29,964 nucleotides of DNA. It comes from a virus. This document shows positions 276 to 29,619 of this stretch, piece by piece. Below the pieces are notes generated by a model. That model was not told the origin of the DNA and searched no databases. It saw only the letters and a list, made by a program, of their open reading frames with translations. Position 1 is the first letter of the stretch. Every line of letters begins with the position of its first letter. The DNA is taken from IMG/VR virus record IMGVR_UViG_3300031920_000467, positions 1-29,964 of that record. The stretch is one strand, 5' to 3'. The position numbers and the translations under genes are program-made.

Positions 276-284
276 TATAAATAC
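276..284 (-). promoter_or_regulatory. Candidate late promoter motif GTATTTATA
   Basis: The minus strand reads GTATTTATA here, ending 15 nt before the ATG of the 49-aa gene. It is one of seven exact start-proximal copies in the window, all in the orientation of the downstream gene. Confidence 0.6.
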
Positions 285-301
285 ATTAAAATTAATTAAA
301 A

Positions 302-1390
302 TTATATGGATTTAAATTTACTACCACCTAACCCACCTGTTTTTCTTCGATTTAATTGTTTCCACCCCTCTGATATATATTTATTTAAATAAAATTTTTC
401 TAATATAATAGCTTCATCGACATTAACATAATTAGTCAGTTGTTTTATTTTTGGTTTTAATTTGGTTTCTTTTATATGAATAGTAACAGCATCGTTTAAA
501 TCTCTTTTTCTATTTTTTTTCCTCATATTGAAATTATATGTTAACCCAACATAAACATACATATCAGAAAATTCATAAGAATATATACATCTATTATATT
601 TATCACCTAATGGTTTCATATGTGAACAAATTTCATCTAACCAATCCATTTTTAATACAATATTATAAACATGTTGAGAATTTTTCACAAAATCACGTTT
701 ATTATTATATTTCAATGCTTCATTTTTACAATTATCAAAGGAATGCCAATATTTATTAGGCAATTTCTTAAAATTCATATGTGAACAAATTTCATCTAAC
801 CAACCATTATATCTTGCAGCACTATATGCATTTTTATTATTAACTTGAAATTCTTTTCTATGCTCATATTTTAATGCAATATATTGACATTTTTCTTTCG
901 ACCATTTAAAACTTTTAATGTATGATTTATACATGTGTTGACAAACATCATCTAACCAACTATTTCTAACACAAGCAGCATATGCATTCATTGAACCATT
1001 ATTAAAATCTATTCGATATTCATATTTATTTGCTTCTTCCTGACACTTTTCTTTCGTCCAAAAAATTGGTTTTTTATAAGATTCCATATGTCCACAAATA
1101 TCAATAAACCAATTATTATCTTTTATCACTTTATATACATATTTAAAATCTTTTCTAAAATTATTAATATTTTTATATTTTTTCACTTCATTTTTACATT
1201 TATCATATGTCCATTTTAATTTTATATTTTTAGGTCTTTCCATATGTAAACATGCCTCACATAACCAATCATTTTTTCTTAATAGTTCATATGCTGCAAT
1301 GTATCTCTTCTTAAAATCTCTTTTATTCTTAAATTCCAACGCTTTACTAAAAGCAGTCTCTTTATTCCAATAATTTCTTTTTTTTCTCAT
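302..1390 (-). CDS. GIY-YIG endonuclease-like protein with five N-terminal repeats
   Basis: This 362-aa protein has two parts. Residues 1-258 hold five copies of a 51-53-residue repeat, each ending in a W-L/F-x-x-x-C-x-H-M signature (HM at 49-50, 101-102, 152-153, 204-205 and 257-258), with the pattern W-(T/S)-K-E-K-C near the start of each unit and R-x-(D/E)-F in the middle. Residues 268-360 resemble a GIY-YIG nuclease domain: IYSYEF then YVYVGLT for the two signature strands, basic residues after them, and Glu331 in LEKFYLNKY as candidate metal ligand. Such proteins are usually free-standing phage homing or DNA-processing endonucleases; the repeats are probably the DNA-binding part (inference). 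A GTATTTATA motif lies 15 nt before the start. No intron or split gene is visible nearby. Confidence 0.75.
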   Translation of the reverse strand: MRKKRNYWNKETAFSKALEFKNKRDFKKRYIAAYELLRKNDWLCEACLHMERPKNIKLKWTYDKCKNEVKKYKNINNFRKDFKYVYKVIKDNNWFIDICGHMESYKKPIFWTKEKCQEEANKYEYRIDFNNGSMNAYAACVRNSWLDDVCQHMYKSYIKSFKWSKEKCQYIALKYEHRKEFQVNNKNAYSAARYNGWLDEICSHMNFKKLPNKYWHSFDNCKNEALKYNNKRDFVKNSQHVYNIVLKMDWLDEICSHMKPLGDKYNRCIYSYEFSDMYVYVGLTYNFNMRKKNRKRDLNDAVTIHIKETKLKPKIKQLTNYVNVDEAIILEKFYLNKYISEGWKQLNRRKTGGLGGSKFKSI

Positions 1391-1405
1391 ATAAAAATCA
1401 TTTAA

Positions 1406-1414
1406 TATAAATAC
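1406..1414 (-). promoter_or_regulatory. Candidate late promoter motif GTATTTATA
   Basis: The minus strand reads GTATTTATA, ending exactly 15 nt before the ATG of the GIY-YIG repeat protein. This is the same spacing as at 276-284 and 17848-17856. Confidence 0.6.
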
Positions 1415-1460
1415 TAAACGATTCGATAATATAATAACATAAAATAATATGAAAAGATTT

Positions 1461-1553
1461 TTACGTTTTTAATTCACTAACATAGTCATATACACCATCT
1501 TCTAAACACGTGAATTTATAATCGCATTTACCCTCAATTCTTAATTTTTTCAT
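1461..1553 (-). CDS. Possible 30-aa ORF or gene remnant
   Basis: An ATG at 1553 opens a 30-aa frame ending in TAA at 1461. The same frame is open further upstream to about 1590, reading LKDRYQYETQAW before the Met, but offers no ATG, GTG or TTG start there. It lies in a different frame from the nucleotidyltransferase gene that ends at 1586, overlapping its last codons. It may be a small gene, the tail of a former longer protein, or chance. I do not recognise the sequence. Confidence 0.3.
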   Translation of the reverse strand: MKKLRIEGKCDYKFTCLEDGVYDYVSELKT

Positions 1554-1585
1554 CCAAGCTTGTGTTTCATATTGATATCTATCCT

Positions 1586-1951
1586 TTAAACATCAGTTGG
1601 GTAATAAACCACACCATATCTTGTACATTCTGAACCAACAACTTCTTTATCTTTATAATGATCACCAACCACCATATAATCAATTTCATGATTAGTAATG
1701 AAATCTTTTAATTCTTTATCTGAATCAAATATATATGCCTGATCCACACATTTGAGTGACATCAAAAATCTCTTTCGTTCAAAATGATCATTAATCGGTC
1801 TTTTTTTCCCTTTAAGTATTTTCACTCTTCGGTCTGAATCAACACCAACTAACAACTTATTATAATTATTATGTAAACTCTTGGCAAATTCAAGTAAATC
1901 TAAATGCCCGGTATGTAATACATCAAAACAACCATTTATCCAAATATTCAT
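1586..1951 (-). CDS. HldE C-terminal-type sugar-phosphate nucleotidyltransferase
   Basis: This 121-aa protein belongs to the cytidylyltransferase-like fold. It shows GCFDVLHTGH at 7-16 (the HxGH nucleotide-binding motif), VDSDRRV at 37-43, and the KRP/ERKRF segment at 50-62. This pattern is that of the adenylyltransferase half of HldE (RfaE domain II), which joins ATP to D-glycero-beta-D-manno-heptose 1-phosphate to give ADP-heptose. In many bacteria the domain is fused to the kinase; here the kinase is a separate gene 56 nt upstream on the same strand. The short C-terminus lacks the usual extended end of the family. Glycerol-3-phosphate cytidylyltransferase is a related alternative, but the adjoining heptokinase-like gene argues for HldE. 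Confidence 0.85.
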   Translation of the reverse strand: MNIWINGCFDVLHTGHLDLLEFAKSLHNNYNKLLVGVDSDRRVKILKGKKRPINDHFERKRFLMSLKCVDQAYIFDSDKELKDFITNHEIDYMVVGDHYKDKEVVGSECTRYGVVYYPTDV

Positions 1952-2007
1952 TATTTTTCTATTTTAGTTTAACCAGCACCAACTTTAACACTAAAACTGT
2001 CATTTTT

Positions 2008-2766: not shown

Positions 2767-3434
2767 TTATATTTATTTATTGTTGGTTTTACATTAATAC
2801 CTACTCTCACACCCTTGAATTTTTTATGATAACTAATTCTTTGACTCATCGGTATTGTTCTAGTTAAACTACCATTATGTTGTCTATATAGAAATAATCT
2901 TTTTTTTAATTTAACTTCCTTAAAACAATTTATTTGATTAAACCTTTGTAAAAATTCAGTATCTGCAGCACATTTCCAAGGTTGATACCCACCTAATATA
3001 TTATAAACCTTCCTATTAATATAATAAACACCATTAGCAAATCCATGCCATTCTCTTCTCTTTTTATTTCCACCATCATAAAAATAATACATAAACCTTA
3101 CTAAATCAGCTTTTACATCAATGACATCTTGAACTAGTGTTGGTAACATTATATCATCACTATCAAATTTAATAATATGATCATATTTTGCCAAGGTTAA
3201 TAATGTGTTTAATGTTATAAATAAACCACCATTATTATCCATAGATGCTATTTTAAGATTCGGATATTTACCTCTAATTTCTAAAAGTTTATTTAATGTA
3301 GGTAGACACGCATCTACACCCACAATTACTTCATATTCTTTATTATTTTTAAAATATGTTTGTGATTTTATTGAATCCAGACATTCTTCAATATATTTTT
3401 CTGTTTTATACGCTGGTATTAATATTGATATCAT
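2757..3434 (-). CDS. Family 2 glycosyltransferase (GT-A), short paralog
   Basis: This 225-aa protein starts with the GT2 signature ISILIPAYKTEKYIEECLDS and carries FDSDD (residues 90-94), the DxD metal/nucleotide-sugar site. Further on it has GGYQPW, shared with the second GT2 gene at 5362-6348. The two proteins align almost end to end (for example QTYFKN and the FDSDD block) and are clearly paralogs. It should transfer a sugar from a nucleotide donor; donor and acceptor cannot be deduced. Its ATG overlaps the stop codon of the upstream methyltransferase (TAATG), which suggests translational coupling. There is no membrane segment, so it is probably soluble. Confidence 0.9.
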   Translation of the reverse strand: MISILIPAYKTEKYIEECLDSIKSQTYFKNNKEYEVIVGVDACLPTLNKLLEIRGKYPNLKIASMDNNGGLFITLNTLLTLAKYDHIIKFDSDDIMLPTLVQDVIDVKADLVRFMYYFYDGGNKKRREWHGFANGVYYINRKVYNILGGYQPWKCAADTEFLQRFNQINCFKEVKLKKRLFLYRQHNGSLTRTIPMSQRISYHKKFKGVRVGINVKPTINKYKWV

Positions 3435-4042
3435 TATACTAATTCTTTTGGTTTACAATGAATTACTTGACCATATTCAATTTGTATTTTTCTTTGATCA
3501 ATAACATCGAAATGATGTTTCATATAATTATAAAATTCAGAACTGGTCCACTCCCTAATATGATATTGATTACCCGGAGGACCTAAAATTGGTCGCCCTA
3601 ACATATTAACTAATAAATCTCTATCAGGTGTAGATATGATAATATGTTTTGGATTCATTCCCTTTATCCAATTAATTAAATCGTCAGGATTTAATACGTG
3701 TTCGATAACATCAGCACATATAACCATATCAACAGTATCTGTTACTGAATTAAAATCAGATAAATACCATTTTTCATTTGGATATTTTATTTTTAATTCA
3801 GAAATAGTCGGTTCTAAATCATAACCAATAACATCAAAATCTGAAAAATATTTTTTTAATTTATAACCAGAACCACATCCAACATCTGCAATTTTATTTA
3901 TTGAAAATTTAGATGAGATTTCATGTGCTAATTTATACACATCATCTTGATATTCATCAGTTTTATTTGATGTATCTAAAAATTTAATTTCATCACGAAT
4001 GATATAATCCTCTCTAATAAAATAATTATTATTCAATTCCAT
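3434..4042 (-). CDS. Class I SAM-dependent methyltransferase
   Basis: This 202-aa protein has a Methyltransferase_11/23-type fold: motif I ADVGCGSGY at 52-60, an acidic end of strand 2 (GYDLEPT), and motif IV ICADVIEHV at 108-116, as in UbiE- and sugar-methylating enzymes. In a cluster of glycosyltransferases the likely substrate is a sugar or glycan (inference from context). It overlaps the upstream GT gene by 14 nt and the downstream GT2 by the TAATG junction, so it sits inside one operon. DNA methylation is unlikely because no target-recognition region or NPPY motif is present. Confidence 0.85.
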   Translation of the reverse strand: MELNNNYFIREDYIIRDEIKFLDTSNKTDEYQDDVYKLAHEISSKFSINKIADVGCGSGYKLKKYFSDFDVIGYDLEPTISELKIKYPNEKWYLSDFNSVTDTVDMVICADVIEHVLNPDDLINWIKGMNPKHIIISTPDRDLLVNMLGRPILGPPGNQYHIREWTSSEFYNYMKHHFDVIDQRKIQIEYGQVIHCKPKELV

Positions 4043-9258: not shown

Positions 9259-12200
9259 TTAAATTTCATCTTCACTTGTTATATTTAGATTATCATTTGC
9301 GTAATTAGTCTCACCATATTTACTCTTATATTGTTCAATTAATTTAGTTTGTTCTTCACTTAAAACACCATTAATATGTCCTTCCTGTAAATTAGCAGCA
9401 TTTGATGGTTTACTATAAATACCTTTATCTGAAAAAGTAGAATTCGCATAATAATTATATGAAACAGCATTTTGAAGTGCATCTATAGGTCCTTTAAGTG
9501 ATTGACCACCTATGATCTTAATTTGCATAGTAACATTCGCTAACATTGGTTGCATACCAAAACCTTCTGGATTTAAATCCCAAGGTGAATCAATATAATC
9601 CATAGTAATAGTATCAATAATAATTTTAGTATTAAAAAAATCACCTATTCTTAAAACACATATTGGTTGACGACCAAACACTGAATTTTTAACTCTACCA
9701 ACACCACTACTATCTTTTTCAGAACCACCTCTAATAGCAGAACCTTGTCTAGTACACTGTTGTAAAAATGTTAGTCTTCTATGAAAATTTTCAGGGGTTT
9801 GAGAATGAAATGCTGAATAAAAATAATTACCAGTAATTGATTTATAACCACTTAATATACCACCATCTTCATTAGAAAGATCAGAAGATGTTCTTTCATT
9901 CATTGTATAATCATTAGCATCACCATGTCTTTTTAATTGATTTCTTCTTTTTTCTAATAGTTCTTTTTCTTTTTTTAATGTCTCAATTTTTTTCTGATCT
10001 TCAGTTGATATTTCTGGTTCTTTTTTATCTGTAGAAATATCAGTTTCATTAAATATTATTGTTGCCATTCTTTCTGATTTGGTAATTTGTTCATCCTTAC
10101 CTTCAAGTGTTTCACCTATATCTGATCCACCCGAATCGCCTATAGGTTCTTCAGTAATTTTAATTACATCTACTGCACTTGGACCAAATAATGCTTTTAT
10201 TCTTGCTTGAATAAATGTTTTAGTAACTTCTACTCTTCTTTCAGATATAGCTTGATTATATTTAATAGAAGCTTCAGTGTCTACTTCATTAGTAACACCC
10301 GGAGTATATAATTTAGATGCTCTACCTAAAATATTAATTTTATAATATTTTCTATTATCGGGATTATTAAATAAAATAAATAAACTTTCATCTAATTTAC
10401 TCTTTTGTCCTTTATACGTATATTGACTAAAACCGGGAGGTACATTAACAACAGCAAAACTCTTATCATCTCTAGTTAAACCAACTGGATAATATATATC
10501 TTTATTCATACCCAAACTACGTGCATCAACACTACTATAATATTTTTCTTTAATCTCATATTTATCTTCAGTGTATAATTTATCAACAAGACTACTAAGA
10601 TTATCATTCTCAGATGGTATATTATTTGGAAAAGCTAAACTAATTGGTTCAGGTAAATCAATTTCTGGTCTTTTTTGGTCAGTACGACCTTCAACTTCTA
10701 CTATTATTTTATCATTTTCCTGTTCCTTTTTAATCATGGTATTAGGATTTTCAGGTAAATCATATGAATCACCACCAAATGCAAAGAATTTAGCAAGTGC
10801 ATCATGACTCGCACTTGAATTACTATTATTTGAATTGTAATTATTTACTTGAGGTGGATAATCAATAAGTAATTTAAAGTTTATTGTTGCAGTTCTTTCA
10901 GAATGCATATATGTATAAACAGGTTCACTTCTACCAACAAAAACATTACTATCCCATTTAGCAATAGCAACTTCATTAATTTCAATACCATATGGTGGAA
11001 ACCACATCATACGTCCGTTAAATGGTCCAACTTCACTTTTAGGTATTTGTGTACCTATTTCATCATCTATAAGTCCAAATTCAGGTGTATCTATTGTTCT
11101 AACCGCCAGATTTTCAATAGAAAACATTAAATTTCTATTATCTATTTTTTTACTTTCTTCATGAATTGTTGGATGAATTCTAGGTATTACTGATTTATTT
11201 ATTACTGAATTTATATTACCACCATATTTAATATTACCATCAAATCTAATTGCTTTAGCAAAACGATCATATTGATCTAAAATAGTATGTTGACGAATAC
11301 CTTCTTTACCTTTTTTATCATCTCTAAGATAATTACTATTATTTGCTTTCCATAGACCAGAACCATTAAAACCATCATCATCCTGAAAAGACTTATTAGT
11401 TTGCTTTTTTTTAGTTTGATCAACAACCTTACCATTGGTTGCATTTAACAATTCTGAAGTATATTTTAATAAACCAGTTTTAACTTTAAACTTAACATCT
11501 AAATTAAATTTTTCAGTTAAATTATTATTAAAATCACCACGTAATGAACTAAGTCTAGTATTTGCAGCATCAGAAACACCATCTCTACCCCAAATAATTT
11601 GATTATCAAGATTAGTATCAAAACCATCTTCTTTTTTAAGGTATTCAGATAAAGTTTCTACCTTAATAACACCAACACCTAAATTATTATCTATATATTC
11701 TAAATCTGGAGCATATTCTTGACCTTTAGCAATTGCTACATCAGAATTTGATTTTACCATTCTTTTATTTGCAGTTTCCTCAGCATTTTGTTGTGCTAAT
11801 AAGGTTTCAGGATTATATTTTTCATATTTATGGGATGGTTTATATGAGAAATTAAAATATTTTTTAGTTGCATTAGTACCATATTTACCATCTAAAATCC
11901 AACTCATTGGTTTGATATCTTCTTTAATCTCTTCAGCTATATCAGAATAAACTTTACTATTTGTTTTATATAAATTTTTATTTATTTGTCTAAATAAAAA
12001 TACTTGTTGGGCACTACCTGTTTTTCTTAAAAATTCATCATTAGAAGCATCTTTAGTATATGGGTAAAAATTTGCCGGAGTAAAACCAACAAATCTTTCT
12101 AAAAATCCTTCAACTGTATTAAAAAAACCTTTATCTCTTTTTGTTATTCTATAATTTTTTTGAAGTGTAAATAAATGAGTTGATGGATCACCATCCCACA

Positions 12201-12585
12201 TATTAGATAGATTAATAGTTGGAAATACTTCTTGAGCTAAATTAGATTGAAAAGTATGTTGAAATTGTTTTCCTAATAAAATTAAACCAATATCAGTAAG
12301 GGGGGTATTTGGTGCAGTTATTAATCTACCAAATGGACTATTATTTAAATCAAAACCTTTAAATGGTGCAACAGCATCAATAACAGCATCAACAGCATTT
12401 ACAATCCATTGTGTTGTTGTTGGTTGTAGGGGATATGCTCTAAAATCATTATATAGATTTCTTGACATTAACGCATCCCTTAAATCTTCAGTAGACTCAG
12501 TTAATCTTGAAGGTGTGAGGACATTTCTACTACTTGTTGATGCACCAGCTAATATCGTTACAGGTTTAATCTTTGGACTTCCCAT
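9259..12585 (-). CDS. Large baseplate/tail structural protein with OmpA-like domain
   Basis: This 1108-aa protein has several parts. Around residues 520-580 is a block (MMWFPPYGIEINEVAIAKW, then EPVYTYMHSERTATINF) typical of tail-tube/baseplate-hub-like folds in large myophages. Around 745-850 is an OmpA_C-like peptidoglycan-binding module (INILGRASK, KYNQAISERRVEVTKTFI and later ERMATIIF). After a charged coiled segment near 870-900, residues about 970-1050 (ICVLRIGDFFNTKIIIDTI, MLANVTMQIKIIGGQSL) look like a second tube-like domain. It is probably a baseplate or tail-cap component that contacts the cell wall. A GTATTTATA motif lies 14 nt before the start, and the gp53-like gene follows directly. 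The exact T4 equivalent is uncertain. Confidence 0.7.
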   Translation of the reverse strand: MGSPKIKPVTILAGASTSSRNVLTPSRLTESTEDLRDALMSRNLYNDFRAYPLQPTTTQWIVNAVDAVIDAVAPFKGFDLNNSPFGRLITAPNTPLTDIGLILLGKQFQHTFQSNLAQEVFPTINLSNMWDGDPSTHLFTLQKNYRITKRDKGFFNTVEGFLERFVGFTPANFYPYTKDASNDEFLRKTGSAQQVFLFRQINKNLYKTNSKVYSDIAEEIKEDIKPMSWILDGKYGTNATKKYFNFSYKPSHKYEKYNPETLLAQQNAEETANKRMVKSNSDVAIAKGQEYAPDLEYIDNNLGVGVIKVETLSEYLKKEDGFDTNLDNQIIWGRDGVSDAANTRLSSLRGDFNNNLTEKFNLDVKFKVKTGLLKYTSELLNATNGKVVDQTKKKQTNKSFQDDDGFNGSGLWKANNSNYLRDDKKGKEGIRQHTILDQYDRFAKAIRFDGNIKYGGNINSVINKSVIPRIHPTIHEESKKIDNRNLMFSIENLAVRTIDTPEFGLIDDEIGTQIPKSEVGPFNGRMMWFPPYGIEINEVAIAKWDSNVFVGRSEPVYTYMHSERTATINFKLLIDYPPQVNNYNSNNSNSSASHDALAKFFAFGGDSYDLPENPNTMIKKEQENDKIIVEVEGRTDQKRPEIDLPEPISLAFPNNIPSENDNLSSLVDKLYTEDKYEIKEKYYSSVDARSLGMNKDIYYPVGLTRDDKSFAVVNVPPGFSQYTYKGQKSKLDESLFILFNNPDNRKYYKINILGRASKLYTPGVTNEVDTEASIKYNQAISERRVEVTKTFIQARIKALFGPSAVDVIKITEEPIGDSGGSDIGETLEGKDEQITKSERMATIIFNETDISTDKKEPEISTEDQKKIETLKKEKELLEKRRNQLKRHGDANDYTMNERTSSDLSNEDGGILSGYKSITGNYFYSAFHSQTPENFHRRLTFLQQCTRQGSAIRGGSEKDSSGVGRVKNSVFGRQPICVLRIGDFFNTKIIIDTITMDYIDSPWDLNPEGFGMQPMLANVTMQIKIIGGQSLKGPIDALQNAVSYNYYANSTFSDKGIYSKPSNAANLQEGHINGVLSEEQTKLIEQYKSKYGETNYANDNLNITSEDEI
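9414..9422 (-). promoter_or_regulatory. Internal GTATTTATA copy, possible promoter for gp53-like gene
   Basis: This is an exact minus-strand GTATTTATA inside the 3' end of the 1108-aa gene, about 183 nt before the gp53-like start. It is the only exact copy that is not immediately upstream of a gene start. It may be a chance match within the codons for Gly-Ile-Tyr, or a weak internal promoter. Confidence 0.25.
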
Positions 12586-12599: not shown

Positions 12600-12608
12600 T
12601 ATAAATAC
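12600..12608 (-). promoter_or_regulatory. Candidate late promoter motif GTATTTATA
   Basis: The minus strand reads GTATTTATA, ending 14 nt before the ATG of the 1108-aa baseplate gene. Confidence 0.65.
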
Positions 12609-12645: not shown

Positions 12646-12840
12646 AAAAAAACGAACGAACCCCTAAATATAATTAATATAATATTATAGTTTTTTATTA
12701 TTAATTATACTTATATATCTCTATATAAGAGAGTTATGTTATAAAACTTACCCTCCAAATATTTTAATACGTTCGTATATATATATATAAGGGAAGATGT
12801 ATTTATATAGAAAAAGTTACGTTCGTTCGTTCGTTTTTTT
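12646..12840. repeat. Perfect 16-nt inverted repeat flanking 163 nt
   Basis: The left arm 12646-12661 reads AAAAAAACGAACGAAC and the right arm 12825-12840 is its exact reverse complement. The right arm extends as tandem GTTC/CGTT units from 12819. The arms bracket most of the divergent intergenic region. Candidate roles are operator or replication-protein binding sites, or a large cruciform. Confidence 0.8.
12799..12807 (+). promoter_or_regulatory. Candidate late promoter motif GTATTTATA (plus strand)
   Basis: The plus-strand motif lies 103 nt before the chosen primase start. An in-frame ATG at 12797 overlaps the motif itself, which argues against that ATG as the translation start. The spacing is unlike that of the 14-15 nt set, so confidence is lower. 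Confidence 0.4.
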
Positions 12841-12910: not shown

Positions 12911-15313
12911 ATGGAAAATGATATTACAACAGTAGAGGGAATTGATACAATTGAGATTGAATTTTTTCAAAAGGTTAATGATAGAAAAAACCATAAACCA
13001 ATTAATTTAATTAAATTTCTTAATTGGGCACAGAAAGACGAAAAATTAGAAAAGAGAACTAAACAATATCATAATTTTTTAAAACAAAATCCTAATGCAA
13101 CTAAAAAAGAAATATCTGGAAAAAAACTTGATTTATTTCCTTCAGTTATTTTTGGTGGTACATTTACTGGAACAGGTAAAGCATCAGACATAAATGTAAT
13201 GTCCGGTTTGATTGTTATTGATATAGATCATTTAGGTAAAACCTTTGAAGATGTAAAACGTGATTTAGAAAATGATCAATATACATATTTATTATTTGTA
13301 AGTCCATCGGGGGATGGATTAAAGGTGGTGGTTAAACATGATTTAACTGATTCAGAAAATTGGGAATTTTTATATAATGAACTTGAAGAGTATTATGTTC
13401 AAACACATTTAATTAATATAGATGCATCAGGTAAAGATATTTCCAGAATGTGTTATATTCCATTCTTAAATGATCTAATCATTAATGAAAATCCTGTAAT
13501 CTATAAATATGATGGTAAATTTGAGAGACAACAAAGGGCAATAAAAGAAGCTGAAGATAAATCAGATGTTGAGTTTACAAAACCGAAAATAACTGATGAG
13601 TTATATACTGAATGTTTTTATATGTCTAAATTTTTGAAAGATAATAAAATAAACATTACTGATAATTATGAAGATTGGTTAGGTTTTGGTTTTTCACTTG
13701 CAGAATTCGGTCAAAACGGTAGAGAAATTTTCCATAATATATCATCAGTATCTGAAAAATATGATGAAGGTGAAACAGATGCTAAATTTGATAATCTTCT
13801 TGAGGAATTTAATGGTGATAAGTCCGGGATTAAGAAGTTTCTTGTTGTTGCTAAAGAACAAACAAATAGATTATTAAATCATAAGATTAAAAATGATATA
13901 ATTTTACCCCCAAAGGAGTTATATCATGATTTACCAAGTATATTAAAATTACCATTAACTAAATATCAAGGGGTTCAAAAGTTTATGGCACTTATTGCAG
14001 GTATTGCTAATATTAGTGGGGTTTTACCTAAATTAAGAGTAAAACACTATGGTACTTATGAATACGGTGCTAATTTATTTGCTTGGATTATTGCTCGACA
14101 ATCAACAGGTAAGAATGTTATTAATGAAATGCAAAAGTTAACTGAATTAATTGAGAAAAAAATTGAAAAGGATTGTAAGAGAGAATATGCAATGTTTATG
14201 GAGAGAAAAACTACTGCAGAAACAAATGGTGAAGTTTTTACTGAATCATATCCAGATTTTAAATCACTATATTTAGGTGCTGATTTAACTAAGGCAGCTT
14301 TAGTTCAAAAACTAAAAAAGAATGATGGACGTGCAATTATATCAACAACAGAAGCAGCTACTTTAATTGGTTCAAATAAATCTAAATTTGGTTCATTCAT
14401 TGATTTAATATTAGCTGCGTATGGACATGAGAGATATCAAAAGGACTTAAATGATAAACAATATATCATAGCAGAACCATATTTATCACTATCATTATCA
14501 TCAACACCGGAAACAGCATATAGTTTTTTTGGTGCTGATAATGTTGAAAATGGTTTATTAAGTAGATTTTTAACTTTTGAAATAAGTTCGGAAAATGAAT
14601 TGAAATTTATTAAAGATCATTTTTCAGTTGAGGGGTTTGATGATGTTCTTGAAACAAATAAGAAAAATATTTATAGAATTTGGTCTCAATTATCTAATTT
14701 AAAAGAATATCTATATTTGGAAATATCTGATGAAGTTGATAAACATTTATTTGATCAATATGCTACCTACGAAAAAGAAGCTAAATATATATATAAATTT
14801 ACTCCGGATGTTGTAAAGAGAATGTGGGTAATGCATAAGAGATTGTTATTAATATTTTCAGCGTTATTTCATTATGAAAAATATTCAACATTTGATATTG
14901 AATGGTTAAACGAAACAAATGCTAAAGGTTGGGAATTTTCAGATAAAATTAAATGTGATAAAAGAGCAATTAATCTAAGTGATTCTATTATGTTTATTTA
15001 TCGTGAAGCATTTATAAGATTAATGTATGGTATTGAACGTCAACAATATAAAAACATGAATGTTTCAACAAGAAATGATAGTATCATGAAAATGAAAATG
15101 AACGGATATACCAATGAATATGTTGCAAACTTATTTGATATACCAATAACTATGGTTGAAAATACATCAGCATCTGGAAGGGTTAAATTTACTCCAGAAC
15201 AAAAAGATGCTGTTGTACAATTAGTTATTTTAGGTATTGATAAAAAAACATTAGGTAAAGCTATGGGTGTTGGTGAAAGAACAATACAAAAATGGTGTAA
15301 AATGGATGTTTAA
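12911..15313 (+). CDS. VirE_N/DUF3987 primase-helicase-like replication protein
   Basis: I start this 800-aa protein at ATG 12911 (MENDITTVEG), preceded by an A-rich tract. The upstream in-frame ATG at 12797 would add residues encoded by the promoter motif and inverted repeat. Residues about 70-180 form a VirE_N/BT4734-like domain with VIDIDH and FVSPSGDGLKVVV, resembling archaeo-eukaryotic primase elements. A middle segment (YEDWLGFGFSLAE) resembles the primase C-terminal helical type. From about 340 follows a DUF3987 ATPase-like domain with a P-loop-like ARQSTGKN near 394. The last 30 residues form a helix-turn-helix (KTLGKAMGVGERTIQKW). Expected role: primer synthesis or helicase loading in phage replication. 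It is the only evident replication gene here, lying between minus-strand tail genes, and it ends 5 nt from the convergent tape measure gene. Confidence 0.82.
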   Translation: MENDITTVEGIDTIEIEFFQKVNDRKNHKPINLIKFLNWAQKDEKLEKRTKQYHNFLKQNPNATKKEISGKKLDLFPSVIFGGTFTGTGKASDINVMSGLIVIDIDHLGKTFEDVKRDLENDQYTYLLFVSPSGDGLKVVVKHDLTDSENWEFLYNELEEYYVQTHLINIDASGKDISRMCYIPFLNDLIINENPVIYKYDGKFERQQRAIKEAEDKSDVEFTKPKITDELYTECFYMSKFLKDNKINITDNYEDWLGFGFSLAEFGQNGREIFHNISSVSEKYDEGETDAKFDNLLEEFNGDKSGIKKFLVVAKEQTNRLLNHKIKNDIILPPKELYHDLPSILKLPLTKYQGVQKFMALIAGIANISGVLPKLRVKHYGTYEYGANLFAWIIARQSTGKNVINEMQKLTELIEKKIEKDCKREYAMFMERKTTAETNGEVFTESYPDFKSLYLGADLTKAALVQKLKKNDGRAIISTTEAATLIGSNKSKFGSFIDLILAAYGHERYQKDLNDKQYIIAEPYLSLSLSSTPETAYSFFGADNVENGLLSRFLTFEISSENELKFIKDHFSVEGFDDVLETNKKNIYRIWSQLSNLKEYLYLEISDEVDKHLFDQYATYEKEAKYIYKFTPDVVKRMWVMHKRLLLIFSALFHYEKYSTFDIEWLNETNAKGWEFSDKIKCDKRAINLSDSIMFIYREAFIRLMYGIERQQYKNMNVSTRNDSIMKMKMNGYTNEYVANLFDIPITMVENTSASGRVKFTPEQKDAVVQLVILGIDKKTLGKAMGVGERTIQKWCKMDV

Positions 15314-15318: not shown

Positions 15319-17832
15319 TTATCCATTTCTCATTTCATTTTCTGTACTAACTTTAGCCTTTATCATTTTTCTATTTTCACCGATTTTTTTACCGTCAAGA
15401 ATTGAACTTACATTTACAGAAATTGCAACGGATTCTTCTGCAAATTTTACTTGAAGTGGTTTTTTAAAGAATTCTGTTAATTGTTTAAGTGGTCTTGTTT
15501 TATTTGAGTTAATATTTGAAATACTTTTAATCATTTCATCAAGTTGACTAAAATCTGCATTATCACCAGTTAATAATGTGTTTATTTCTTTTAATGCAAA
15601 ACTAACATCCTTTAAACTATCTGAATGTTTTGCAATTAATTTTACTGTTTTACCGAGAATAAGTGCACCACCTAAACCAGCTTTAAGACCTATTAACGAT
15701 GTTGATAATACACCAATACCAGCACCCATTTCCTTTAATGATTCACCACCATTAGGTGCAATTTTGAATAATTCAGTAAAATTATTAGTCATATTACCAA
15801 CACCACCACCAACCATTTTAACAGCAAGACCTAAACCCATTAAAGCACTTGTGATAATTCCAATACCCGGTCCTCCTAGTGCTCCAATTAAACCAGCACC
15901 AGCAATACCAGTAGCAACTTTTGGTAACATCCCCAATATTGATTTCATTGAATTAATTTGTTCTGGTGTTAAATCTTTTACGGCATCTGAAATACTTTTA
16001 ATTCCTTTACCTGCCATATTTAAACCAGCACCAATACCAGCAGCACCAATACCAACACCAGCACCGATACCAAGTGCAGCCATAGCAGTACCTTTACCAC
16101 CAATGCTTTTACCAATGCCTTTTTTAATACTACCTTTACCTTTATTATTACCACCATTACCACTATTATCACCAAATACACTACCTAATAAACCAGTAGC
16201 TTGTTTAAATAAAAAAGCACCTGCAATAAAAATACCACCAGCTTTCGACATATTACCGGAAATATCCAAACCTGTTAATTTATCAATCCATTCACTAATT
16301 TTATGATCTCCCTCTGCCCATTTCAAAAATTTATCAATTTGTGGTCTTGCTTTTTCAAGTACTACATTAATACCTCTTATCATTGGCAACATTAATGTTT
16401 TTAATGAATTAATTGTAGCTTTAAAAGCTTCATCAAAAGTTTGTGCCGATTTTGCTCTTTCTTCTAAAGATTTTGATCTTTCTCTTAGTGCTTCAATTTC
16501 TGTTTTTGATAGCTCATTAATATTTTTACTTGAGTTACCTATATGAACCATAAATTTACCTGTTTCAGAATTTAAAAAACCTACACCCTCAACAACATCT
16601 TTCTCTTTTTTAGTTAACCCCATTCCCATCATTTGTTTTCTCATTAATTGAATGTCTTTCGTTCTTAGAGCTTGTTCTGTAAGATTTTCAGCAGATATAC
16701 CTAATGATTTTGCCACACTTGCAATACGATCTCTATCCGCAGGTGATATAAATTTTTCAAATTGATCAGTATCCATGTTTTTTCTAAGTGTTACCAAACC
16801 AACAGTCATTTGGTTTAATTTCTTAGCATATGCAGCAGGATCATTACGTGATAAAAATAGTAATTCAAATGGATCGGTTTTTGCAAATTCACCACCCATT
16901 ACTTGTAAATTTGCTGCCATTTCAATAGCACCTTCCAAACCTCTTGCATTTTTTGCAGAATCCAATGTTTCACTAATATCAATTTTAAATTTCTCAGCAT
17001 ATTGTGCCATTTCTGCAAAACCCTGAACTCCTTGTCTAAATGTAAATTGTTGAAGTTTTTTAAAATTAGTTGTAATGCCTTTAAACACAGCACTTGTGTT
17101 AATACCCATTAGTTCTGATGTTTCAACAATACCATTAACATATTGCATGGTACTTTTAACATCCACACCCATTAATTCAAATTGAGCAGCTAATTGAGTA
17201 GCACCATCAATACCTAAAGAAGTACCTTTACCCATCAAAGTAATATCTTTTACCATCTCAGCAGATAATACTCTTGCTCTACCAGTTTCATTAGCGAAAC
17301 CAGTCATCATTGTTTTAATATCTTCTAAATCACCACCTAAATATGCTACAAATCCACTAGAATCTTCAAATGATTTTCTCATCATTTCAGCTTTAGTGGC
17401 ACTTATTCCTAAACTAAGAATTGTTTGTCGAATAACCTTATCTGACATCATTAGATATTCATATTGACTCGTGAAGATATTAAATGAGTTTTTTGCTACG
17501 TTGGCAAGTGTTTTTTTTAATTTAATTTTTTTATTTAATTGTTTTATTTCATCATTATGCATTCCAATTCTTTTATTGATTGCATCTGTTGTTTGTTTAG
17601 TTATCTGATAACCATCTTCACTAGCATCATTATATGCCTCTTGCATTGCATTAGCAATCTTTTGTTTTTCATTTTGGATATCTTGTTCAATGGAAATTCT
17701 TTTTCTCACATTGAAAACATTACCTAGTTCATTTAATTCATTCTTCGATAAAGCAATTTGTTGTTCAGACAATTGCTTTTGCGCTTGATATGCTCTTTCT
17801 AAGTCACTAAGGTTTTTTCTTTTATCAGCCAT
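15319..17832 (-). CDS. Tail tape measure protein
   Basis: This 837-aa protein begins with about 100 residues of charged coiled coil (ERAYQAQKQLSEQQIALSKN), continues with the alpha-helical TMP-like core (TGFANETGRARVLSAEMVKD, GIDGATQLAAQFELMGVD), and contains Gly/Ala-rich hydrophobic helices around residues 545-700 (GKSIGGKGTAMAALGIGAG, GLIGALGGPGIGIITSALMG). Coiled coil plus hydrophobic stretches is the normal layout of a tape measure, which sets tail length and may insert into the host membrane. At 837 aa it would span roughly 120 nm if fully helical (inference). A GTATTTATA lies 15 nt before the ATG, and a terminator precedes that promoter, so it has its own transcription unit. The chaperone pair lies just upstream, as expected. 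Confidence 0.85.
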   Translation of the reverse strand: MADKRKNLSDLERAYQAQKQLSEQQIALSKNELNELGNVFNVRKRISIEQDIQNEKQKIANAMQEAYNDASEDGYQITKQTTDAINKRIGMHNDEIKQLNKKIKLKKTLANVAKNSFNIFTSQYEYLMMSDKVIRQTILSLGISATKAEMMRKSFEDSSGFVAYLGGDLEDIKTMMTGFANETGRARVLSAEMVKDITLMGKGTSLGIDGATQLAAQFELMGVDVKSTMQYVNGIVETSELMGINTSAVFKGITTNFKKLQQFTFRQGVQGFAEMAQYAEKFKIDISETLDSAKNARGLEGAIEMAANLQVMGGEFAKTDPFELLFLSRNDPAAYAKKLNQMTVGLVTLRKNMDTDQFEKFISPADRDRIASVAKSLGISAENLTEQALRTKDIQLMRKQMMGMGLTKKEKDVVEGVGFLNSETGKFMVHIGNSSKNINELSKTEIEALRERSKSLEERAKSAQTFDEAFKATINSLKTLMLPMIRGINVVLEKARPQIDKFLKWAEGDHKISEWIDKLTGLDISGNMSKAGGIFIAGAFLFKQATGLLGSVFGDNSGNGGNNKGKGSIKKGIGKSIGGKGTAMAALGIGAGVGIGAAGIGAGLNMAGKGIKSISDAVKDLTPEQINSMKSILGMLPKVATGIAGAGLIGALGGPGIGIITSALMGLGLAVKMVGGGVGNMTNNFTELFKIAPNGGESLKEMGAGIGVLSTSLIGLKAGLGGALILGKTVKLIAKHSDSLKDVSFALKEINTLLTGDNADFSQLDEMIKSISNINSNKTRPLKQLTEFFKKPLQVKFAEESVAISVNVSSILDGKKIGENRKMIKAKVSTENEMRNG

Positions 17833-17847: not shown

Positions 17848-17856
17848 TATAAATAC
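17848..17856 (-). promoter_or_regulatory. Candidate late promoter motif GTATTTATA
   Basis: The minus strand reads GTATTTATA, ending exactly 15 nt before the tape measure ATG and directly after the terminator hairpin of the upstream chaperone unit. A promoter immediately after a terminator is a strong positional argument. Confidence 0.7.
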
Positions 17857-18056: not shown

Positions 18057-18083
18057 CCCGGCTAAATTCCGGGAGAAAAAAAA
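18057..18083 (-). promoter_or_regulatory. Candidate -1 ribosomal frameshift site (slippery T7/T8 plus hairpin)
   Basis: On the minus strand the heptamer T TTT TTT occupies 18083-18077 in exact X XXY YYZ phase relative to the gp26-like frame (GAT TTT TTT TCT). Three nt later a hairpin forms: CCCGG at 18073-18069 and CCGGG at 18061-18057, with the zero-frame TAG (18064-18062) in the loop. After a -1 slip, 13 sense codons lead without a stop to the ATG of the 51-aa ORF. The spacer is shorter than usual, so efficiency is uncertain. Confidence 0.6.
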
Positions 18084-19072
18084 TCCACACCGACAGTCAA
18101 TACACTTTTAAATTTAAATCCATCTTTTGCTGTAAATTCATACTCCATGTCAACATCAGGAGACACTTCTAATATTTTTCTACGTACTGTTGTTGAATCT
18201 AATCCCGGCATTGCATCAACAAATTTACTTATATAATCTTTATCAACTTTATCACCAATTGATACAATTTGTGCTTTTATTTTCATTGTGTTATATTCAC
18301 TAAATTCAACACCCATTGCTTCTTTTATTTCATCAGCTTGTTGAAATATTGCATTTTCTTCACTACCACTAATTAATCTGAATTTAACTAATTTTTTTCT
18401 CATTGGTAATTCTACAGAAAAATAACCATTTTCATCCGGTGTTTCAGTAACTTCTTTATATTGAAGTTGTGATAGATTAACAACAGTTTCAAAAGGAACA
18501 CCTGTTCTTGGATCATAAACACTAACACCATAATCATTACCATATGATGATATTCTTAAAAATAGAAGAATTGCATTTTTATCTCCGGGTAATAATTCAC
18601 TTGCCACAACACCCTGTGTTTTAATTTTTCTATTTAATAATAAATCATTTACTTTACCGCTTTCAATTAAAGATGGTGTTGTTATTAAATCTTCATCTTT
18701 TGATGTCATATACTCAATTTCAATTTCACCAATTTTATGTTTATAATGAGCACCTTTAGATGGTAATTTAATTAATTCATATGCTGTCATTAAATCAGGA
18801 TCGGTTTCCTTTTTCATAACTTTCTCGAAATCATTAGATTTATATTGTGGTGCTGGTGGAATATTAGGTTTCGATGTGGCTTGTTGTGGTGATTTATCAA
18901 CAATAATACCTTCTTTAATATTCTCTTTATTAATAATATCTTGATAAAATTCTTTAGGTAATCCTTCTGGAATTTTTGGTGCTTCTTCTGACATCTGATG
19001 TTGTTCTTTAAATTTTTTAACAGTATCAGTTACTGAAGGTTTTTGAGGTGGTTTATTATTATCTGTTTCCAT
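18062..19072 (-). CDS. gp26-like baseplate/tail assembly protein
   Basis: This 336-aa protein matches the T4 baseplate gp26 family pattern (PF12322-type). After a Pro/Lys-rich leader of about 105 residues come ELIKLPSKGAHYKHKIGEIE, a YMTSKDEDLITTPSLIESG block, the G-V-V-A-S-E-LLPGDKNAILLFLRISSYG core, and a YDPRTGVPFE segment where homologs have a Cys-rich knuckle. In T4, gp26 is needed to build the hub and is thought to act as an assembly factor rather than a lasting structural part. The gene ends in the only TAG stop I noted, beside the candidate frameshift site, so a longer fusion with the 51-aa ORF is expected. A variant late motif (GTATTTATT) lies 26 nt before the ATG. Confidence 0.75.
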   Translation of the reverse strand: METDNNKPPQKPSVTDTVKKFKEQHQMSEEAPKIPEGLPKEFYQDIINKENIKEGIIVDKSPQQATSKPNIPPAPQYKSNDFEKVMKKETDPDLMTAYELIKLPSKGAHYKHKIGEIEIEYMTSKDEDLITTPSLIESGKVNDLLLNRKIKTQGVVASELLPGDKNAILLFLRISSYGNDYGVSVYDPRTGVPFETVVNLSQLQYKEVTETPDENGYFSVELPMRKKLVKFRLISGSEENAIFQQADEIKEAMGVEFSEYNTMKIKAQIVSIGDKVDKDYISKFVDAMPGLDSTTVRRKILEVSPDVDMEYEFTAKDGFKFKSVLTVGVDFFSPGI

Positions 19073-19098: not shown

Positions 19099-19107
19099 AA
19101 TAAATAC
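19099..19107 (-). promoter_or_regulatory. Variant late promoter motif GTATTTATT
   Basis: This has one mismatch to GTATTTATA in the last position. It lies 26 nt before the gp26-like ATG and is preceded by TTA as in other copies. Confidence 0.45.
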
Positions 19108-19183
19108 TAAGAAAAAAATAAATGAAGAAAAATTCAAGATTATTCTCTGAAATACGTATAAGTAATTAGAAGCAATTTAATTT

Positions 19184-19939
19184 ATGTCGAAAAATAATTA
19201 TCAAAAACAAGAAAAAGAGTTTAAGGAAATAACTAAAGACGTTGATTTATTGAGTGTTAAAGATGTAATGAGTAAAATCATACCAGAAAAAATGAAATTA
19301 CTCGCTAAAAACGATAATCAAAAGAAATTAATGAATTCAATTAGACAAAATGAAATTACAATAGTAAAAGGACCTCCGGGGTGTGGTAAAACTTTTGTCA
19401 GTGTTGGTTTTTCATTAGGTTTATTAAGAAAAAAAGAAAATAGATTTAAAAAGATATATTTAGTGAAGTCAGTAACTACATTGAAAGGGGAGGAAGTTGG
19501 ATTTTTAAAAGGTGATTTGAAAGAAAAGATTGAACCAGTAATGTGGAGTTTTACAATTAACATGGAAAAATTAATTAAAGTTAGTTCAATAAATAAATTA
19601 TATGAATCTGATATTATTCGACCATTTCCACTGGCATATATGAGAGGTGCAAGTTTTGATGATTGTATTATAATTGCTGATGAAATGCAAAATGTTAGTT
19701 TAGATAATTCTCGAACGTTATTAACTAGAATTGGTAGTAACTGTAAACTCATTTTACTTGGTGACACTAAACAAATAGATATAAAAAATAAAAAAATAAG
19801 TTCTTTAGAAAAATTATTAGAAATGTTTAAAGACACTAAAGGAATTGGTGTTATTAACATGAATGAAGGGGATACTGAGAACATTAGAAATCCATTAATA
19901 ACTGTTATTGAAAAAACATATGATGAATATGGAGAATAA
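19184..19939 (+). CDS. phoH: PhoH-like P-loop ATPase
   Basis: This 251-aa protein has Walker A GPPGCGKT at 63-70, Walker B CIIIADEMQN at 161-170 with the Q-N that marks PhoH, and the sensor-like LLGD at 191-194. GAS(F)DD just before Walker B also fits. PhoH proteins are RNA/DNA-associated ATPases with SF1-helicase-like fold, very common in T4-type phages; the role in infection is not settled. It is the first gene of the plus-strand block, divergent from the gp26-like gene. No GTATTTATA precedes it, which suggests early or middle rather than late control. It overlaps the next gene. Confidence 0.92.
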   Translation: MSKNNYQKQEKEFKEITKDVDLLSVKDVMSKIIPEKMKLLAKNDNQKKLMNSIRQNEITIVKGPPGCGKTFVSVGFSLGLLRKKENRFKKIYLVKSVTTLKGEEVGFLKGDLKEKIEPVMWSFTINMEKLIKVSSINKLYESDIIRPFPLAYMRGASFDDCIIIADEMQNVSLDNSRTLLTRIGSNCKLILLGDTKQIDIKNKKISSLEKLLEMFKDTKGIGVINMNEGDTENIRNPLITVIEKTYDEYGE

Positions 19940-23143: not shown

Positions 23144-24010
23144 ATGGGGAAAAAAACAAACTATTATTTTGCAGAACGTGAAGAAAAGGCAGTGATCGAT
23201 TACATTGGTTCAGATTCTGGTAAATTAAAAAATCAAATATACAACGAGGTTTTGATTGAACCATTTCGTATAATGATTGAAGTGATATTAAGAAAATATC
23301 CAATACATATTGGTAATTATACAATGGAAGAGGTTGAACAGTTTGCTTTAAACCATCTTATTGATCAAATGGTTAAATATAAAACATATATAATTGAAAG
23401 TAAACCATATGATATTGATGATAAATGGATTAAACTTGGTGATGGTTACCGATTTATTAATTTAGATGATGTAGAAAATAAATTAGATACTTTAATTAAT
23501 GTTGAAGATGGGTTTGATTATAGAATTTTTAAATCTAAAGCATATAGTTATTGTCAAACAATAGTTAGAAATTATTTTAAAGATTGGAGCAAAAAAACAT
23601 ATGCAGATAAAATTATTAATTTAAATTATGATGATTATTTTGATGAAATTAATCAAAAATCAGAATTTATATATGAAATATCTAGTGATGATAGTTCATT
23701 GTTAGATAAACTTATGATAAAAATCGTTTCTGAAATTGAAAATAAACTAGATAACGATACAAATATTAAGAAAAATGAACTTATTGTTGGTGAAGCGGTT
23801 GTTAATGTGTTAAAACATTGGGACTTGTTATTTTTAGAAGAAACCCCGGAAGGTACATATAATAAAAAAGTCACCAATAAATTCGCAAAAAATAAAGTAC
23901 TTTTATTTCTAAAAGAACAAACCGGATTAAATACAAAAGAAATTAGAATGGCACTTAAACCATTTAAAGAACTATATTTCCTTGAAAAGGAGGGTTTATT
24001 AAGTGAATAA
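23144..24010 (+). CDS. Late-transcription sigma factor, T4 gp55-like
   Basis: This 288-aa protein resembles the phage late sigma factor family. The N-terminal block YYFAEREEKAVIDYIGSD, followed by RNQIY-like LKNQIYNEVLIEPFRIMIEV and ILRKYPIHIG, then KAYSYCQTIVRNYFKDWSKK, corresponds to the conserved region-2-like segment used by gp55 to bind core polymerase and the late -10 element. The C-terminal 110 residues are less conserved and end in an acidic/hydrophobic tail (ELYFLEKEGLLSE), similar in character to the sliding-clamp binding tail of gp55 (inference). It lies just before the first late-type structural gene and its GTATTTATA motif. It would direct host RNA polymerase to the late motifs in this window. 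Confidence 0.72.
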   Translation: MGKKTNYYFAEREEKAVIDYIGSDSGKLKNQIYNEVLIEPFRIMIEVILRKYPIHIGNYTMEEVEQFALNHLIDQMVKYKTYIIESKPYDIDDKWIKLGDGYRFINLDDVENKLDTLINVEDGFDYRIFKSKAYSYCQTIVRNYFKDWSKKTYADKIINLNYDDYFDEINQKSEFIYEISSDDSSLLDKLMIKIVSEIENKLDNDTNIKKNELIVGEAVVNVLKHWDLLFLEETPEGTYNKKVTNKFAKNKVLLFLKEQTGLNTKEIRMALKPFKELYFLEKEGLLSE

Positions 24011-24028: not shown

Positions 24029-24037
24029 GTATTTATA
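24029..24037 (+). promoter_or_regulatory. Candidate late promoter motif GTATTTATA (plus strand)
   Basis: The plus-strand motif ends 14 nt before ATG 24052, matching the minus-strand spacing. It sits after the late sigma gene and starts the virion block, so it both supports the motif on the opposite strand and decides the start of the next gene. Confidence 0.65.
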
Positions 24038-24051: not shown

Positions 24052-24426
24052 ATGCCAAGACCTACAAGAAAAAAATTAAAATTTAATGAAGATAGTGTAA
24101 ATGATCTTTTACAGGAAATTTATAATGACAGCCATAATCTTAAAGCTAAACTAACTCGTTTATTTACTAAATGGGAAACAAAAGCATCAGAAGGTGGTGA
24201 GATTGCTGCAATCGGTGATCAGATAGTGAAAATTATTAATGCCGAAGCTAAAAATCAAGATCAAAAAATTATGCTTCTTAAATATTTAAAGGAAGTTGTT
24301 TTTGATAAAAACAAATCATTAAGTAATGATAGTGAACAAGGAAAAGATGTTAGTTCATCATCAAGAAATGAATTAATTCATATGGTTGAAGAACATACAA
24401 ACAATTCAAAAGATAAAAAGAAATAA
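24052..24426 (+). CDS. Small helical protein of unknown function (124 aa)
   Basis: I take ATG 24052 (MPRPTRKKLKFNED) rather than an upstream in-frame TTG at 24025, because the late-promoter motif lies between them. The protein is helical: NDLLQEIYNDSHNLKAKLTR, a central AAIGDQIVKIINAEAKNQDQ, and MLLKYLKEVVFD. The C-terminus is polar and Ser/Lys-rich. The N-terminus is basic. Size and charge are compatible with a small terminase subunit or a DNA-associated assembly factor, but I do not recognise a clear family. It leads the late structural genes and is followed by a 5-nt gap. Confidence 0.7.
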   Translation: MPRPTRKKLKFNEDSVNDLLQEIYNDSHNLKAKLTRLFTKWETKASEGGEIAAIGDQIVKIINAEAKNQDQKIMLLKYLKEVVFDKNKSLSNDSEQGKDVSSSSRNELIHMVEEHTNNSKDKKK

Positions 24427-27429: not shown

Positions 27430-27438
27430 TTATTTTCA

Positions 27439-27446: not shown

Positions 27447-27451
27447 TCTTT

Positions 27452-28243: not shown

Positions 28244-28247
28244 GAAA

Positions 28248-28829
28248 ATGACAGATACAAAACAGGGATTGCCTCCAATACCAAGAGGAAAAGAACGTAA
28301 TTTATTTTTTGGTAAACAAGTTGATCAAGAAACGATTGAAGCGTTATCTAGAGAAATTATTTTAATTAATGAAAATGATGTGGAATTAGTTAAATTATAT
28401 GCAATTTATGATTTGGAATATAAACCAAAGCCAATTAAGATATATATTGATTCTTACGGTGGTTATGTTTATCAAGTATTAGGATTGGTAGGTATAATGG
28501 AAAAATCTAAAACAGGTATTCATACCATATGTACTGGTGCTGCTATGTCATGTGGATTTATAATGTTAATTTTTGGACATAAAAGATTTTGTTATGAACA
28601 TGGTACACCTCTTTATCATCAAATTGGTACAGGTTTCAGTGGTAAAGTAGAAGATTTGGAACAAAAATTTGTTGAATCTAAAAGACTTCAAAATAAAATT
28701 GAAGAAATGACAATTAGAAAAACTAAAATATCAAAAGAAAAGTTAGATGATATTCGTGAAAAGAAAATTGATTGGTATATGACAGCGAAAGAAGCGTTAG
28801 ATTTAGAGGTTATTGATGAAATAATTTAA
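28248..28829 (+). CDS. ClpP-like serine protease (S14), probable maturation protease
   Basis: This 193-aa ClpP-fold protein has IYIDSYGGYVYQ (residues 65-76, the S-P-G-G-like glycine strand), GAAMSCG at 97-103 with nucleophile Ser101, PLYHQ with His124, and DWYMTAKEALDLEVID with Asp175 completing the triad. All three catalytic residues are therefore present. Phage ClpP-like enzymes often process the prohead, but no scaffold or capsid gene is visible in the window, so the substrate is open. It lies 4 nt after the nuclease gene and 3 nt before a small gene. Confidence 0.88.
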   Translation: MTDTKQGLPPIPRGKERNLFFGKQVDQETIEALSREIILINENDVELVKLYAIYDLEYKPKPIKIYIDSYGGYVYQVLGLVGIMEKSKTGIHTICTGAAMSCGFIMLIFGHKRFCYEHGTPLYHQIGTGFSGKVEDLEQKFVESKRLQNKIEEMTIRKTKISKEKLDDIREKKIDWYMTAKEALDLEVIDEII

Positions 28830-28832
28830 ATT

Positions 28833-29030
28833 ATGAATTTATTACAACTATTTTGGGAATGTGTTTTACATAGTAAATGTGAAACATTAAAGAAACAGGA
28901 TATACTTCAAGATTATAGAATGGAAAGTACTGAAGAGGGTGTTATTGATTTATATGTAATACCAAAAAAAATAATACAACATATAAATATTGATATTATT
29001 GTATCACCATCAGGTGCAACATTCTCATAA
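28833..29030 (+). CDS. Small protein of unknown function (65 aa)
   Basis: This 65-aa protein (MNLLQLFWECVLHSKCETLK to IIVSPSGATFS) follows the ClpP-like gene after 3 nt and precedes the terminator, so it is the last gene of the block. It has two Cys residues and a beta-like second half (VIDLYVIPKKII). I do not recognise the family; expression is likely from context. Confidence 0.6.
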   Translation: MNLLQLFWECVLHSKCETLKKQDILQDYRMESTEEGVIDLYVIPKKIIQHINIDIIVSPSGATFS

Positions 29031-29036
29031 ATAAAA

Positions 29037-29062
29037 AAAACCACACTAAAAAGGGTGGTTTT
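29037..29062. terminator. Bidirectional terminator between convergent genes
   Basis: Arms AAAACCAC (29037-29044) and GTGGTTTT (29055-29062), with an inner CT/AG pair, form a stem around an AAAA loop. A runs lie on the left and T-rich sequence on the right, so it can end transcription in both directions between the plus-strand block and the tail tube gene. Confidence 0.85.
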
Positions 29063-29087
29063 ATATTTTAAATTAAAAATTTGTTTA

Positions 29088-29576
29088 TTAAAGATTAAGA
29101 ATACATCTCCAAGGTTGGAAAGTTACAACAATATTTGATAGATCATCACTAGTGTAATCATTGTCACCGAAATCAACACCTGTTACCATACACTGTTCTA
29201 AATACCATTTTTCAACTTCAATACCTGTAGGGTCTAATGCTTTAAGTATTAAATTTTTCTTATATCCTGCAGCATAACCCATTCTACCTGTTAATGATTC
29301 TGCATGTAATCGAACCCACTCCATTACTTGTTGTGATGTCGATGGTCCAATTGGATCAAGAAATGTTACCGTCATTTCGTCCCAAGTATATTTACCTGCA
29401 ACATAATTTTGTTCGTTAACAAATGGAATTGGCACAGAATTTATTTTCTTCGATGGTCTTTTAATTTTTTGAACTTTCCACACTTCTATACCTAATTCAT
29501 CTGGAAATTCAACAAAGAAACGATTAACTCGTTTTGGTTCGTAGTCGAAAGGGATACCCCTTAATAATTCAGCCAT
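29088..29576 (-). CDS. Tail tube protein, T4 gp19-like
   Basis: This 162-aa protein is the size of T4 gp19 and has its pattern: an N-terminal RVNRFFVEFPDELGIEVWKV strand pair, a loop with RPSKKINSVPIPFVNEQNYV, the GKYTWDEMTVTFLDPIGPST strand, VMEWVRLHAES, a GYAAGYKKNLILKALDPTG block, and YLEQCMVTGVDFGDN with a C-terminal VVTFQPWRC strand. Tube rings stack to form the DNA channel inside the sheath. A GTATTTATA motif lies 34 nt before the ATG. The neighbouring gene on this strand is the acidic repeat protein upstream; the sheath gene is not in the window. Confidence 0.92.
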   Translation of the reverse strand: MAELLRGIPFDYEPKRVNRFFVEFPDELGIEVWKVQKIKRPSKKINSVPIPFVNEQNYVAGKYTWDEMTVTFLDPIGPSTSQQVMEWVRLHAESLTGRMGYAAGYKKNLILKALDPTGIEVEKWYLEQCMVTGVDFGDNDYTSDDLSNIVVTFQPWRCILNL

Positions 29577-29610
29577 ATCTTTTATATATTATTTAATATT
29601 CTTATTCTCC

Positions 29611-29619
29611 TATAAATAC
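29611..29619 (-). promoter_or_regulatory. Candidate late promoter motif GTATTTATA
   Basis: The minus strand reads GTATTTATA 34 nt before the tail tube ATG, in the gap after the acidic repeat gene. The longer spacing than the 14-15 nt class leaves room for a leader. Confidence 0.6.

Follow-up and report, generated by a model that had tools for sequence, protein, structure and literature searches.

The element GTATTTAT is almost certainly a late-gene start signal in a large family of giant phages, most of them uncultured

The IMG/VR virus record IMGVR_UViG_3300031920_000467 is 29,964 bases long and was analyzed in full; we refer to this whole stretch as the window. A short word, GTATTTAT, precedes several of its genes. 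Judged from comparison with related contigs, this word is almost certainly the late-gene start signal of a large family of T4-related phages, many of them giant and most of them uncultured, hereafter the clade. In the genomes compared, GTATTTAT holds a defined position upstream of genes, points toward them, is conserved at orthologous genes, marks genes of the virion class, and is missing from early blocks. We also consider it probable that GTATTTAT is the late -10-like element of the clade, read by a sigma factor resembling gp55 of phage T4 on the host RNA polymerase.

Enrichment and conservation of the element

A previous sequence-only reading of the window had proposed a phage late promoter that consists of one element and points toward its gene, and had suggested counting the motif and its reverse complement upstream of gene starts. 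Because the window is the entire IMG/VR record, this count was made on relatives. Searching IMG/VR with the gp55-like protein of the window (23144-24010) returned 133 encoding stretches; 80 loci, lying on contigs of up to 349 kilobases (kb), were retained. A search with a protein of 1108 amino acids (aa) found 44. The enrichment set comprised 77 non-redundant related IMG/VR loci plus the window, that is, 1.2 Mb with 1,234 genes that start with ATG and encode 80 aa or more, for which the 60 upstream bases were taken. GTATTTAT was the top enriched upstream 8-mer, with 256 occurrences against 10.6 expected, and its reverse complement occurred 5 times. When gene starts were shifted as a control, the mean was 7.1 hits and the maximum 13, against 89 observed. 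Counts over the entire contig exceeded the reversed-letter control in every clade contig searched, by about 1.4- to 3-fold. The same pipeline recovered TATAAATA from T4 (11/50 genes) and ATAAATA from P-RSM4 and Phosso.

The comparison of orthologues is the strongest single result. Orthologues of the motif-bearing window genes retain GTATTTAT in 205 of 223 cases; among orthologues of well-sampled motif-free window genes (at least 26 orthologues per gene), only 1 of 578 carries it, and none does among those of the poorly sampled motif-free genes. These orthologues are related and not independent. Enrichment, orientation, and conservation bear out the proposal of a directional element. The low G+C content of the window (24-31%) might by itself favor a chance excess of an A+T-rich word. 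This explanation has practically no probability in view of the orientation and the shift controls, and the conservation among orthologues refutes it.

The 9-mer GTATTTATA, in which the motif was first described, has 8 exact copies in the window, against a mean of 1.5 and a largest value of 6 in 100 dinucleotide shuffles. When one mismatch is allowed, 39 copies are found and 38 are expected by chance, so only the exact 9-mer is special. Its ninth base shows a weak preference, and the true core is the 8-mer GTATTTAT. This core has 10 copies in the window, of which 7 clearly precede genes, that at 12799 is doubtful, and those at 9414 and 3759 are intragenic. The copies are listed below by coordinates of the 8-mer and strand, with distances in nucleotides (nt) and the retention of the motif among orthologues of the downstream gene.

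277-284, minus: putative late promoter core, exact match; precedes a 49-aa open reading frame (ORF), 111-260 (minus); 16 nt from 8-mer to ATG, A at +12/+13
1407-1414, minus: putative late promoter core, exact match; precedes 302-1390 (phrog_20046, unknown function); 8-mer spacer of 16 nt; 0/3 orthologues, in spite of the copy in the window
12601-12608, minus: putative late promoter core; precedes the 1108-aa ORF 9259-12585; 31/34 orthologues, at 11-18 nt
17849-17856, minus: putative late promoter core; precedes 15319-17832 (837 aa, probable tape measure); 40/42 orthologues
19100-19107, minus: putative late promoter core; precedes the T4-type baseplate protein gene 18062-19072 (PF12322); 45/49 orthologues
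24029-24036, plus: putative late promoter core; precedes 24052-24426; 52/61 orthologues
29612-29619, minus: putative late promoter core; precedes the tail tube gene 29088-29576 (phrog_4542 tail tube); 37/37 orthologues
12799-12806, plus: GTATTTAT copy of doubtful role; 104 nt 5' of the probable primase/helicase start at 12911; no orthologues of the downstream gene found to compare
9415-9422, minus: GTATTTAT copy, probably chance; inside the coding sequence of ORF 9259-12585
3760-3767, minus: 8-mer copy, probably chance; inside ORF 3434-4042, without A at +12/+13

On recounting, the copies of the sequence-only reading, seven matching the 9-mer exactly and one with a mismatch, were all at the positions and strands given there, and the mismatched one, at 19099, is an exact match to the core. 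Most of them do lie upstream of gene starts, as had been claimed. The exception is the plus-strand copy at 12799, which is doubtful because the primase/helicase probably starts 104 nt away; an eighth copy, coding and on the minus strand (9414-9422), had been missed. Spacers of 14-15 nt are correct for the five genes whose ATG lies at 260, 1390, 12585, 17832, and 24052, and do not represent a fixed spacing.

The anatomy of the element was examined in nearly the full length of two contigs, G009 (321 kb) and G001 (340 kb), at spacings of 10-24. The core was found 60 times against 1.9 expected. Single-base changes remained at background level, except for CTATTTAT, with C at the first position (8 against 0.6 expected), and a few GTATTTGT, a small excess (3 against 0.5). 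The T4 core TATAAATA, which is not the core here, occurred 7 times against 3.2 expected. Across the enrichment set of 77 loci plus the window, most start codons follow the motif at 14-16 or 19-21 nt, and a further rise in the distribution lies at 30-45; orthologous promoters are placed 11 to about 80 nt from the start codon, mostly 11-66. Downstream, A residues form a conserved tract, +11 to +14 counted from the G, whose A-rich block at +12/+13 is shared by short and long leaders; this tract likely marks the start region. There is no -35 element, as the sequence-only reading had noted, save for a weak block, A/T-rich and poor in G, that lies some 11-14 nt 5' of the G. The gap upstream of motif genes has a median of 102 nt and is never under 20 nt; for other genes the median is 20 nt, and 50% fall under 20 nt. 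In both giant-phage contigs GTATTTAT heads operons, being confined to places where an operon can begin.

These measurements bear on whether GTATTTAT could act in the messenger RNA leader, as a translation or processing signal, instead of as a promoter. Its usual location 11-66 nt from start codons would suit such a role. However, the spacing between motif and start codon differs widely, and the downstream A tract keeps its place relative to the motif. The motif also occurs at operon starts only, it and another promoter class exclude one another, and early genes lack it. We consider a leader element very improbable and rejected it on spacing and operon position.

As to gene class, PHROG functions among the larger motif genes of G009 include terminase, portal, baseplate hub, tail tube, and tail fibre. 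The motif genes of this contig also include a tRNA nucleotidyltransferase and a glycosyltransferase. Conversely, GTATTTAT precedes none of the 145 genes at 200-260 kb of G009 and none of the 88 genes at 20-60 kb of G001. Gene class, assigned by homology, and this distribution in blocks suggest that the genes preceded by GTATTTAT are expressed late.

Two further regions of the window were noticed. Between 1586 and 8015 lie genes that by eye resemble nucleotidyltransferase, kinase-like, glycosyltransferase-like, and methyltransferase-like genes; they are without late promoters and seldom present in relatives. At 29655-29963, a Glu-rich ORF with near-identical tandem repeats continues past the window end.

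Relation to T4 late promoters and the candidate reader

The late element of T4 is located at -13 to -6, in agreement with the positions of the bases flipped by gp55. This protein opens TATAAATA and flips the non-template bases A-12, A-9, and A-8, with A-12 and A-8 held in deep pockets (PMC7892883). The T4 core TATAAATA and TATTTATA are mutual reverse complements, and the sequence-only reading had proposed a reverse complement used in another register. Read on the same strand, the two differ only at positions 4 and 5 (T4 -10 and -9), and TATTTATA keeps both A-12 and A-8. The notion of reverse use is unneeded, because two substitutions suffice and both pocketed bases are kept; we judge the reversed spelling to be a coincidence.

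A truly reversed element, with the T4 core read on the template strand, would nevertheless account for the exact reverse-complement spelling, and recognition on the template strand exists for the non-virion RNA polymerase of AR9 (PMC9209446). The same-strand reading makes this reversal unnecessary. Moreover, AR9 employs its own RNA polymerase, and no multisubunit (RpoB-like) enzyme was found here. We regard template-strand use as highly unlikely.

Like T4 late promoters, the clade element is a single -10-like box without a -35 that precedes virion genes, and it would likewise be served by a small phage sigma on the host polymerase. Unlike them, it has TT for AA at -10/-9, an almost invariant G at -14 that is seldom replaced by C, an optional last A, and a leader without Shine-Dalgarno sequence, and no gp45 clamp is recognized. 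Cyanophage promoters of the T4 type share this architecture, with ATAAATA preceding structural genes of P-RSM4, but their core retains the T4 AAA; the segment NPFAYFTQI of cyanophage gp55 aligns with KAFSYCQTI of the gp55-like family. Flavobacterium phage immuto and Microcystis phage Mel-JY01 carry elements of the TATTTAT type, where A/CTATTTAT(A) precedes structural genes; their first base is A or C, and that of the clade is G. The tail-tube tree does not resolve outside the clade, so one origin of TATTTAT elements cannot be told from several. In the literature searched, which left most subscription journals outside so that novelty is not proven, the T4 structure paper alone was relevant to the motif, and no description of the immuto or RM378 promoters was found.

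Other upstream words were seen in these phages. In immuto (L216-L223) a second word, ATATTTAGGTA, occurs upstream of genes, with ATATTTAG found 20 times against 1.6 expected. In Rhodothermus phage RM378 (L134, L197-L203) a TTATTTAA-type word precedes about 40 of 147 genes, often 6 nt from the ATG. We do not claim TTATTTAA as the same promoter; if it were a promoter, its leaders would be very short.

The proposed reader of GTATTTAT is encoded in the window, as the sequence-only reading had also suggested:

23144-24010, plus: putative gp55-like sigma factor gene, conserved family A1

Homologues of its product occur in immuto and Mel-JY01, both annotated as hypothetical, and in LR756508, which is unannotated. 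Aligned by hhalign, T4-type gp55 and the wider gp55-like family match over 75 columns (E value 2.5e-4, probability 43%). In this remote alignment, T4 Tyr97, which stacks on A-12, pairs with Y136, invariant in A3. The T4 gp55 profile phrog_234 matches the ORF of the immuto homologue (E 0.008). A fold search against the PDB with a second, poorer model ranked WhiG first (E 0.13) and domain 2 of sigma-A third (E 1.1). Altogether, the protein is likely homologous to gp55 and is likely the reader of GTATTTAT. In this mechanism, host RNA polymerase carrying the gp55-like sigma would melt GTATTTAT and read it on the non-template strand, oriented as T4 TATAAATA is. Transcription would start a few bases 3' of the element, near the A tract, with no requirement for a -35 element.

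Several results weigh against this assignment. The homology is remote, as the hhalign probability indicates, and the clade alignment alone recovered none when compared with gp55. Family searches gave weak sigma matches at most, and a PDB sequence search gave nothing relevant. The fold search with the first model found nothing, the E values of the second are not significant, and both models are of modest confidence. LR756508 encodes a homologue without a detectable motif, and therefore counts against a simple rule linking the gene to the motif. No gp45-type clamp was found with PF02916 in the clade, nor in other distant T4-like phages. Finally, sigma factors of the extracytoplasmic function (ECF) type encoded by the clade could in principle read GTATTTAT.

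The last point amounts to a different reader, a phage ECF-type sigma or a modified host sigma, acting on the same late promoter. Clade genomes encode at least two ORFs with sigma region 4, and the six examined also carry Sigma70_r2. On the other hand, ECF sigmas normally use promoters of two parts, two classes of which are available for them in the clade. In addition, the TATTTAT-type elements of immuto and Mel-JY01 occur together with the gp55-like gene, and no region-4 sigma was detected in these two phages, whereas the giant clade has both kinds of sigma. We therefore regard an ECF-type or host reader as unlikely.

Short ORFs of 112-119 aa, separate from the gp55-like gene, were observed at G007:98389-98535, G003:23421-23531, and G006:149513-149683. 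They match the T4 gp55 profile at positions 72-130 only, and that of G006 contains two stops.

Two-part promoters and a possible sigma cascade

The motif-free, early block has its own two-part element, TGTAAC-N16-CGTATA, which precedes rIIA and rIIB. In G009 the spacing is exactly 16 in 58 of 63 cases. Up to 58 copies per genome were counted, against 0-1 in the reversed-letter control (G009 L164-L179, G001 L180-L196, and 12 other clade contigs), and none were found in T4, immuto, RM378, or Mel-JY01. No gene has both GTATTTAT and this element; with the looser CGTAT form there is one, in G001. ECF sigma promoters carry AAC at -35 and CGT at -10. The early element has their form, and it is this early class of the clade phages, not the late class, that resembles them.

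A second two-part class stands before the operon containing the gp55-like gene:

19134-19161, plus: promoter type TCAAGA-N15-CGTATAA; precedes the PhoH gene 19184-19939, leader of the operon with the gp55-like gene

In the clade, TCAAGA-N15-CGTATW occurs 49 times at exactly N15, and the reversed-letter control has 0 at this spacing. When the gp55-like operon was traced upstream, a TTCAAG/CGTAT promoter was reached in 41 loci, never GTATTTAT or TGTAAC; the remaining traces reached the contig end (24), had no motif (11), or had CGTAT only (2). These loci are not all independent. ECF-type sigma genes, of which each genome seems to have two kinds or more, were noted at L237, L238, L239, L178:14176-14742, L173:5699-6265, and L244.

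These elements could form a cascade of three steps run by phage-encoded sigmas, which we put forward tentatively. One ECF sigma would act on TGTAAC-N16-CGTATA in the early block, a second on TTCAAGA-N15-CGTATW, whose best-conserved target is the PhoH/gp55-like operon, and then the gp55-like protein on GTATTTAT at virion genes. Here we infer the pairing of each sigma with each promoter.

Hosts and significance

The window carries a BT4734-type primase domain, and Shine-Dalgarno sequences are nearly absent (present in 2% of genes, compared with 54% in T4). Together with the Bacteroidota hosts of immuto and RM378, these features suggest that the hosts of the clade are Bacteroidota. The listed host of Mel-JY01 is a cyanobacterium.

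Late transcription in T4 has served as a model for decades, with its promoter known essentially in one spelling. A clade in which two central bases are changed offers a naturally occurring test of sequence choice by gp55-type sigmas. GTATTTAT also makes it possible to identify late genes and operons in many giant-phage contigs that lack annotation and, together with the two ECF-type classes, provides a regulatory map for phages that have never been cultured.

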